A DNA stretch of 64,000 nucleotides from an uncultured Dehalococcoidia bacterium (GTDB lineage: Bacteria; Chloroflexota; Dehalococcoidia; Lucifugimonadales; UBA3495), in assembly GCA_951813535.1 (NCBI GenBank), contig OX638345.1, positions 1,795,158 to 1,859,157 on the forward strand. The letters run 5' to 3'. Below the pieces are notes generated by a model, which was not told where the DNA came from, searched no databases, and saw nothing but the letters and a program-made list of their open reading frames with translations. The translations under genes and the position numbers were made by a program. This document shows, piece after piece, positions 29,771-31,491 of this stretch; position 1 is the stretch's first letter, and every line of letters starts with the position of its first letter.

Positions 29771-30325
29771 ATGTCGGCGAAAGTCACCGGGCTGGGCCAT
29801 ATCGGTTTCTATGTTCATGACCTCGAGCTCATGATGGACTTCTACGCAAATTTCATGGGCATGACACTGACCAAGGTCGGCCCGCTTGGCGCGTTTTTCA
29901 GCGCCGATCCGGAGGCCTGCGATCACGAAATCGCCCTGATAAACGGACGGACTTCGCTGGAGGACCCGCACTGGATCCAGCAGATTTCAATGCGTGTCGA
30001 GTCTCTCGATGATCTGCGCGATTTCAAGCAGCGCATCCTCGAACGCGGTTACCAGCTGGACCGCATCGTCACCCACGCCAGCGCCATCGGCTGCTACTTC
30101 CGGGATCCGGAGAACAACCCCACCGAGGTGTTCTGGCTGACCGGCCATACATCATGGGCCCAGGTGGGCATCCCCATCGACATCGACCAGTCGGATAGAG
30201 ACGTGATGGCGGATGTGCTTCGGTCCTGGGAGGCAGTGCGGGACGTCGAAATGGGCCAGCCGGCCGGCCCGGAAACGGTGGACGCCATTCGCGAGTTGAG
30301 CGCGACGGCGGTGGCCGCCCGGTAG
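29771..30325 (+). CDS. VOC-family protein (extradiol-dioxygenase-like)
   Basis: The 184-residue protein has two VOC modules: GLGHIGFYVHDLELMMDFYANFMG with the first His ligand, and ASAIGCYFRDPENNPTEVFW with the terminal Glu ligand. At the place of the second His (usually HxAF) the sequence reads QQISMRV, so one metal ligand may be replaced. A C-terminal extension of about 45 residues resembles that of catechol-2,3-dioxygenase-like proteins. GGAGGTAAAG precedes the ATG. It lies 36 bases before the deiodinase-like selenoprotein gene and is probably co-transcribed with it. Confidence 0.85.
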   Translation: MSAKVTGLGHIGFYVHDLELMMDFYANFMGMTLTKVGPLGAFFSADPEACDHEIALINGRTSLEDPHWIQQISMRVESLDDLRDFKQRILERGYQLDRIVTHASAIGCYFRDPENNPTEVFWLTGHTSWAQVGIPIDIDQSDRDVMADVLRSWEAVRDVEMGQPAGPETVDAIRELSATAVAAR

Positions 30326-30361: not shown

Positions 30362-31108
30362 ATGCTAAAGGCGCAGCGCGACAGCGCAATCAGTGGGCTG
30401 AGCGACGAGCACCGTCGGCAACTCCGACAGATTGTCGACGGCATCAAGGAGGCGCGGGTATCCCATCAGAGTGCGGGACGAATTGCAGCGCGAGAATTGC
30501 TGGCGGGACGGCAACAGGACCCGCCCGCAGAGGTTCGCGCCGCCCTGGAAGCCATCCTGGTGCGGGATGAAACCGGTCCCAAAGTTGGCGAGGCGGCTCC
30601 CGATTTTTGCCTCAAGCGGTTGGGTTCCGAGGAACGGGTCCGATTGTCCGACTTTGTCGGGCAGCGGCCGGTGGCGCTGGCCTTCGGCAGCTATACTTGA
30701 CCCCCCTTCCGCGCTCAGTCTGAGCGCATGACCCAGATCTACCGCCGCTACAAGGACTCTGTGGAGTTCTTTGTCGTCTACGTCCAGGAAGCCCACCCCA
30801 CCGACGGCTGGCAGACCGACAGCAACATCGAGGAAGGCGTACTGTTCCGCCAGCACCGGAGCTACGCTGAACGGGCGTCGGCGGCCCAATCGTGCAGCAT
30901 CGACCTGCAGATCGGTCTTCCCGTCATCGTTGAGGAAATGGACAATGCCATCGATGAGGCCTACGGCGCAGCGCCGGAACGCCTGTACCTGGTGGACGTT
31001 GATGGCAAAGTGGCCTACCACGGCGGCGCCGGACCGCATTTCTTCGAGCTGGACGAATGGGAGCAGGCGATCCAGGCTTGCGCCGCTATCCCGGCCAATA
31101 GCCGTTAG
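30362..31108 (+). CDS. Deiodinase-like thioredoxin-fold selenoprotein, Sec at codon 113
   Basis: Read with TGA (30698-30700) as selenocysteine, the protein has 248 residues. The frame is the same before and after the TGA. The site reads FGSYT-U-PPF, which matches the iodothyronine deiodinase active site (FGSCT-U-PPF). Before it comes an AhpC/TSA-like start (GEAAPDFCLKRLGSEERVRLSDFVG); after it come typical deiodinase blocks: YRRYKDSVEFFVVYVQEAHPTDGW and ERLYLVDVDGKVAYHGG. GGAGG at 30352-30356 sets the ATG at 30362. A hairpin fit to act as bacterial SECIS follows. The likely role is reductive dehalogenation or thiol-peroxide chemistry in the cytoplasm. Without Sec insertion the product would stop at 112 residues and lack the active residue. 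Confidence 0.88.
30711..30727 (+). promoter_or_regulatory. Bacterial SECIS-like hairpin
   Basis: GCGCTCA (30711-30717) and TGAGCGC (30721-30727) form a perfect 7-bp stem with the three-base loop GTC. It starts ten bases after the TGA, so the loop G is 18 bases from it. From memory, bacterial SECIS elements need a G in the first loop positions and a short, fixed distance of this order; both hold. Confidence 0.8.
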
Positions 31109-31491
31109 GCCACATGAGCAGGGCGCCGTCGGCTGCAGGAACCACCAGCCGACGGCGTTGCTGTGGGCCCCTCTTTGGGCGGACCCGAGTTTGCGGATTG
31201 GGCCATCCGATAGCCGACCCGAGGCTCGGTCAGGATGTAGGTGGGGTTTTCTCCGTTGTGGCCCAGCTTCCGGCGCAATCGTCCCACGTGGGTACGAACC
31301 ACCCGCGGGTCATAGAAGTGAGAGTTCCGCCAGACCCGACGCAGTAGTTGCTTGTACGTCAGGGGTCTGCCCTCTGCGGCAGAGAGTTCCCGGATCAAGC
31401 CGTACTCGGTTGCAGTGAGTTCCATCGCCTGGCCGGCCAGGCGGACCTCACGGCTGTCGTAGTTGATCTCCAAATCCTCAATGAAAGCCAT
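31105..31491 (-). CDS. Stand-alone OmpR/PhoB-type winged-helix domain protein
   Basis: Nearly all of the 128 residues are one winged-helix domain (FIEDLEINYDSREVRLAGQAMELTA, then LLRRVWRNSHFYDPRVVRTHVGRLRRKLGHN and a PRVGYRMA end), followed by a 25-residue unstructured tail. There is no receiver domain, and a stop codon lies directly before the ATG. The domain resembles the C-terminal part of the tandem regulators at 22003 and 24556. It is either a receiver-less regulator or the remnant of a longer one. It ends four bases inside the convergent selenoprotein gene. Confidence 0.65.
   Translation of the reverse strand: MAFIEDLEINYDSREVRLAGQAMELTATEYGLIRELSAAEGRPLTYKQLLRRVWRNSHFYDPRVVRTHVGRLRRKLGHNGENPTYILTEPRVGYRMAQSANSGPPKEGPTATPSAGGSCSRRRPAHVA

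Follow-up and report, generated by a model that had tools for sequence, protein, structure and literature searches.

To our knowledge, the thyroid-hormone deiodinases are the only characterised selenocysteine (Sec) enzymes that take halogen off aromatic rings. Deiodinase-like selenoproteins of bacteria have been known since 2005, when Zhang and colleagues described Sec- and Cys-containing forms from the Sargasso Sea (PMC1088965), and 22 Sec forms were reported from GOS in 2008 (PMC2398784); neither report includes enzymology. Reviews give UxxC as the motif of the bacterial proteins (PMC9312934, PMC13188914), and a literature search returned no publication that connects a deiodinase selenoprotein with SAR202 or Chloroflexota.

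Here we describe a member of this known family encoded in a stretch of 64,000 nucleotides from an uncultured Dehalococcoidia bacterium (hereafter the window). Like the Sargasso and GOS proteins it belongs to PF00837, contains Sec and has a bacterial SECIS hairpin. It differs from them in having UPPF in place of UxxC, a long loop of the type found in the animal deiodinases (Dio) and a candidate resolving cysteine at position 178; this distinction is drawn by the published motif, and some of the earlier proteins may belong to the same clade. Added here are the host lineage, the complete Sec machinery, statistics on the SECIS hairpin, the grouping of a long-loop clade with Dio, the absence of the hormone clamp, and Cys178.

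Decoding of the in-frame UGA

A preliminary description, made from the sequence alone, had proposed a deiodinase-like selenoprotein whose reading frame is broken only by the TGA at 30698, in the context FGSYT-TGA-PPF. Translation bore this out: the frame at 30362-31108 (+) contains a single TGA, at residue 113, and a GGAGG Shine-Dalgarno-like sequence lies 5 nt before its ATG (Table 1).

Table 1. Coordinates of the selenoprotein gene, its parts and the adjoining gene in the window
Feature	Position	Strand	Description
Deiodinase-like selenoprotein gene	30362..31108	+	248 aa with Sec113, ATG start, TAG stop; PF00837 E 3.1e-36
In-frame UGA codon read as selenocysteine	30698..30700	+	Sec113, equivalent of Dio3 Sec170; TGA in homologues and Sec machinery in genome
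Bacterial SECIS hairpin	30711..30727	+	7-bp stem GCGCUCA/UGAGCGC, apical loop GUC; folding, covariation and shuffle tests
Thioredoxin-fold deiodinase domain	30584..31108	+	Residues ~75-243; AlphaFold2 model, fold match to Dio2/Dio3, alignment
Cys178 codon, candidate resolving cysteine	30893..30895	+	Invariant in long-loop bacterial homologues, absent from Dio2/Dio3
VOC (glyoxalase/extradiol dioxygenase-like) gene	29771..30325	+	36 nt upstream of selenoprotein ATG; PF00903 E 5e-10

The preliminary description had proposed aligning homologues to see whether residue 113 is U or C, and had named a decayed downstream half in relatives, or a genome lacking Sec machinery, as findings that would speak against a selenoprotein. 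From 22 loci in GTDB species genomes, and from about 30 genomes within the genus and family, we obtained 30 distinct close homologues, all from SAR202-type Chloroflexota and full-length over the site. The catalytic codon was TGA in 30/30, with no Cys or sense codon at this position in any of them, and no relative had a decayed 3' half. dN/dS was 0.12-0.23 after the TGA versus 0.07-0.24 before it; judged by these ratios, purifying selection is similar in both halves of the gene, and thus the 3' half is not decaying. The window genome (4.38 Mb, single contig) also proved to carry the whole machinery, dispersed over the chromosome: selA (445 bits), selB (355 bits, the sole match above the cut-off), tRNA-Sec (selC; 66 bits, anticodon TCA, i.e. 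UCA) and selD (370 bits). The selD gene (C1:1105770-1106690, locus L045 of genome G000) has one in-frame TGA of its own and is likely a selenoprotein gene too.

The hairpin noted earlier, a perfect 7-bp stem with loop GTC starting ten bases past the TGA, was likewise recovered (GCGCTCA-GTC-TGAGCGC); its apical loop begins 18 nt past the UGA and, counting its palindromic extension, its arms are 8 nt around one base. On its own it folds at -11.4 kcal/mol (z -2.4), and 1 of 200 shuffles folds equally well. Across the close homologues the seven stem pairs were formed in 195 of 217 cells, a number reached by 0 of 2000 synonymous recodings with the genes' own codon usage (109 ± 6 paired cells) and by 0 of 2000 column-wise synonymous codon shuffles (187.5 ± 1.5). 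Compensatory changes on both sides occurred at 4 of the 7 stem pairs, and the signal was lost in slid pairings. In nearly all homologues the apical loop reads GGU, GUC or GGC, and the distant homologue L051 has a perfect stem at the same place with unrelated sequence. No Rfam family matched the coding strand over the hairpin. The Sargasso report describes the bacterial selenoprotein element as a hairpin immediately downstream of the UGA whose small apical loop contains a G (PMC1088965); the hairpin found here has that position and such a loop, and covaries.

One could instead take the TGA as a true stop, the gene being split or pseudogenised with a restart at ATG 30728, which is in frame 27 nt past the TGA. 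We found no Shine-Dalgarno sequence before this ATG on reading the sequence, and the reading is at odds with the constant place of the TGA, the same catalytic codon in every homologue, as well as with the SECIS covariation, the Sec machinery in the genome and the purifying selection on the 3' half; it is barely credible, and the comparative evidence refutes it. A general code in which TGA means Trp was also ruled out, as the long genes nearby contain no TGA and a tRNA-Sec is encoded in the genome. Because of the conservation of the TGA, the statistics and covariation of the stem and the selection on the 3' half, decoding as Sec is, on comparative grounds, close to certain. The UGA would be read through by the SelA/SelB/SelC/SelD pathway, the hairpin serving to bind SelB. 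The gene is a clean case of a TGA at which automatic annotation likely splits a gene in two.

At least five further thioredoxin-fold genes of the window genome have an in-frame TGA at the active site (L153, C1:1144272; L154, C1:2632862; L156, C1:2556795; L157, C1:3209870; L159, C1:2363996). The motifs in this set are FWAPW-U-PHC (twice), GVW-U-PYC, TYC-U-VNC and FATW-U-PEC, and the GVW-U-PYC gene has a hairpin of -20 kcal/mol. The thioredoxin-fold selenoproteome of the lineage thus seems rich.

Fold and active site compared with Dio

With Sec read as Cys, the protein matches the PF00837 profile at 125.3 bits against a gathering cut-off of 27 (E 3e-36), and the part downstream of the TGA does so alone at 5e-25; it is the only PF00837 copy in the genome. 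NCBIfam NF038285 (deiodinase_rel) matches at E 1.6e-61 over the catalytic domain, its 208.7 bits lying below the curated cut-off of 250; the window protein lacks about 170 N-terminal positions of this model. By sequence, mouse Dio3 (1.7e-27) and mouse Dio2 (3.8e-23) come first among proteins of solved structure, and the predicted fold (AlphaFold2 with 38 window and locus sequences; pLDDT 89.6, pTM 0.86) also ranks Dio2 (Z 21.6) and Dio3 (Z 21.2) first by Foldseek and VIA-align, in agreement with the deiodinase-like protein with catalytic Sec proposed at the outset. The first 75 residues read as hydrophilic and are modelled as helical, with no N-terminal transmembrane segment. We conclude that the selenoprotein of Pfam T4_deiodinase is real, and comparative sequence evidence makes it almost certain that the product is a soluble 248-aa member of the iodothyronine-deiodinase family.

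In the model and alignment, a beta strand is followed by Sec at the start of a helix, by the omega-loop EAHPTDGW...RQHRS at residues 143-167, by a helix containing the invariant Cys178, and by a cis-Pro-like LPV at 186-188. The likeness to Dio1-3 (mouse Dio3, 4tr3; mouse Dio2, 9h48) extends over the thioredoxin-fold core, FGSxT-U-PPF, the omega-loop EAHPxDGW...H, the proton-relay residues and a GGxGP motif, with Z 21-22 and 31-34% identity to mouse Dio2 and Dio3. Sec170, Ser167, Thr169, Tyr197, Glu200, His202 and His219 of Dio3 map to Sec113, S110, T112, Y140, E143, H145 and H165, and the last six of these are invariant in 30/30 close homologues; in Dio3 a proton relay and phenol binding have been proposed for these residues (PMC11592359, PMC12025243).

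Other parts of the Dio active site differ. The position of Dio3 Arg275, whose replacement by Ala cuts Dio3 activity sharply, is Ala223 in 30/30 close homologues, and the carboxylate clamp (Arg275/Lys241) is missing. The distal Cys239 of Dio3, conserved across isoforms, is not Cys in any of the 30, and the proximal Cys168 is replaced by Tyr111. The preliminary description had pointed out this Tyr two residues before Sec; the Tyr is there, but the Cys it called usual is not universal even in Dio, Dio2 having Ala at the proximal position (PMC9141512). Compared with Dio1-3 the window protein further has the new invariant Cys178, no hydrophobic N-terminal anchor and a bacterial SECIS inside the coding region.

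The next fold matches are ResA and AhpE-type proteins near Z 18 (top 18.3), and they bear on two other readings of the function. AhpE, a 1-Cys peroxiredoxin (Prx), and ResA-type oxidoreductases share the fold with the window protein (Z 17-18), which differs in lacking the Prx Arg and CxxC; AhpE and ResA have no deiodinase loop. The main rival to a dehalogenase is a Sec-dependent peroxidase that would reduce H2O2 or organic hydroperoxides in the manner of an atypical 2-Cys peroxiredoxin, Sec113 being the peroxidatic and Cys178 the resolving residue, with the deiodinase loop only shaping the substrate pocket. It is consistent with the matches to AhpE and other peroxiredoxins (Z 16-18), with an AhpC-TSA HMM match of E 3e-10, with Ser at Sec-3 as in the Prx motif, and with the several other thioredoxin-fold proteins of the genome that have an active-site TGA. 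However, Dio is the better match by sequence and by 3 Z units, the Dio-specific loop and relay residues are invariant, and the catalytic Arg position of Prx is Glu206, as in Dio, when set by eye against the genome's own Prx (L149) through the shared Asp of the RxxxxxD strand. We therefore consider a peroxidase rather unlikely. Another selenium redox function, in which the protein exchanges thiols and disulfides or reduces a substrate without halogen, such as a quinone or a small oxidised molecule, would fit the closeness in fold to ResA-type thiol-disulfide oxidoreductases and the general redox role that the discoverers of the bacterial family proposed (PMC1088965), but it is improbable given the lack of CxxC or UxxC and the Phe or Tyr after UPP in all long-loop members.

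Long-loop and short-loop homologues and Cys178

The closest homologues come from SAR202-type Chloroflexota and include proteins of two described bins from the sponge Aplysina aerophoba, bin87 and bin22 (PMC5649159). We built a tree of 83 bacterial homologues (Chloroflexota and one plasmid-borne) with Dio2 and Dio3. It places 52 long-loop bacterial proteins and Dio on one side of a branch supported at 99/94, and 31 short-loop proteins on the other; the branch stands when the loop, Sec, Sec+3 and Cys178 columns are removed. Sec and Cys178 are present in each of the 52 long-loop bacterial proteins, together with Phe or Tyr at Sec+3; in the window protein the Sec+3 residue is Phe116, where UxxC has Cys. 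Sixteen members of the short-loop group are UxxC, three are UxxF with Cys178, three are other Sec proteins, and in nine the Sec is replaced by Cys, Ser, Gly or Thr. Counted over the bacterial Sec proteins, Cys178 alone is found in 55, Cys at Sec+3 alone in 16, both in 0 and neither in 3, and no non-Sec protein has Cys178. On the tree, only one or two independent events account for the swap between the two cysteines. Because the two never occur together and Cys178 is confined to Sec proteins, these patterns suggest, as a hypothesis, that Cys178 may fill the resolving role of the Cys at Sec+3.

Some short-loop PF00837 homologues (L057, L059, L126 and L143) carry Ser, Gly or Thr where others have Sec, which suggests that redox function was lost within the family. 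We found no phage relatives and no match among IMG/VR viral contigs. The sole plasmid match was a distant Cys-form relative (26%) on Mycolicibacterium vanbaalenii plasmid NZ_CP126902.1 (L105); its gene is flanked by genes for a carboxymuconolactone decarboxylase and a glutaredoxin-domain protein, redox surroundings that might point to the reductant of the Cys-form protein.

Proposed chemistry and gene neighbourhood

Taken together, a Sec-decoded, soluble, reductive dehalogenase-like oxidoreductase of the deiodinase family, acting on a halogenated phenol or other aromatic, is the reading we favour with moderate confidence. In its favour are Dio as the best match in sequence and fold, the invariant loop and relay residues, the branch joining the long-loop proteins with Dio, and Glu206 at the Prx Arg; it is weakened by the change of Arg275 to Ala, the absence of Cys168 and Cys239, the lack of an organohalide-related neighbour across lineages, and a fold near AhpE and ResA. 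The chemistry could take the following course, which we hold about equally apt to prove right or wrong. The substrate would be an activated aryl halide, probably a phenol, whose halogen Sec113 would attack and remove reductively, His145 holding the phenol and the Ser110/Thr112/Tyr140/Glu143/His165 network giving the proton, on the lines proposed for Dio3. The invariant Cys178, or else an external thiol, would then resolve the selenenyl halide, giving a selenenyl sulfide for thioredoxin or a low-molecular thiol to reduce. Since the Arg275 carboxylate clamp is lost, and Arg275Ala cuts Dio3 activity, the substrate is probably not an iodothyronine but, more likely, a marine halo-aromatic that is smaller or carries a different charge.

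A bolder and rather doubtful extension is that the SAR202 long-loop clade consists of free-standing Sec-dependent aryl-halide reductases for marine halogenated phenols, with a relocated resolving Cys178; these would be the equivalent in bacteria of the animal deiodinases, and perhaps their origin. A soluble bacterial clade with the Dio loop and relay and without the hormone clamp offers a tractable system for the first, pre-animal role of the fold, and there may be a cofactor-free dehalogenation route in the abundant marine and sponge-associated SAR202 bacteria.

The preliminary description had also taken the VOC gene 36 bases upstream as a hint at halogenated aromatic or peroxide substrates. 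The spacing is as described (the VOC ORF ends at 30325 and the ATG is at 30362), but the hint fell away in other lineages: by synteny the VOC gene adjoins the selenoprotein gene only in the close relatives L001, L002, L005 and L006, the upstream gene being a molybdopterin oxidoreductase in L007-L009 and L011 and a dienelactone hydrolase in eight loci (L012, L014-L017, L020-L022). No neighbour gene is common to all lineages or points to organohalides in all of them. With no shared partner, genome context does not name the substrate, and VOC operon logic is ruled out as general functional evidence; halogenated-aromatic chemistry is something we continue to infer, and the VOC context lends it no support. 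Within the window genome itself co-transcription of the two genes is plausible, because a weak promoter-like site precedes the VOC gene and no terminator-like site lies between them.

Downstream, a 128-aa winged-helix ORF at 31105-31491 (-) matches, at about 78-80% identity, the C-terminal part of sensor/response-regulator-like proteins of 700-800 aa that are syntenic in L001 and L006, and looks like a truncated remnant. Just past the selenoprotein stop, within the 3' end of this converging ORF, reading of the sequence shows a strong inverted repeat without a T tract at 31125-31162 (CGCCGTCGGCTG...CAGCCGACGGCG); the terminator scan gave no call there, and the repeat is possibly a shared terminator.
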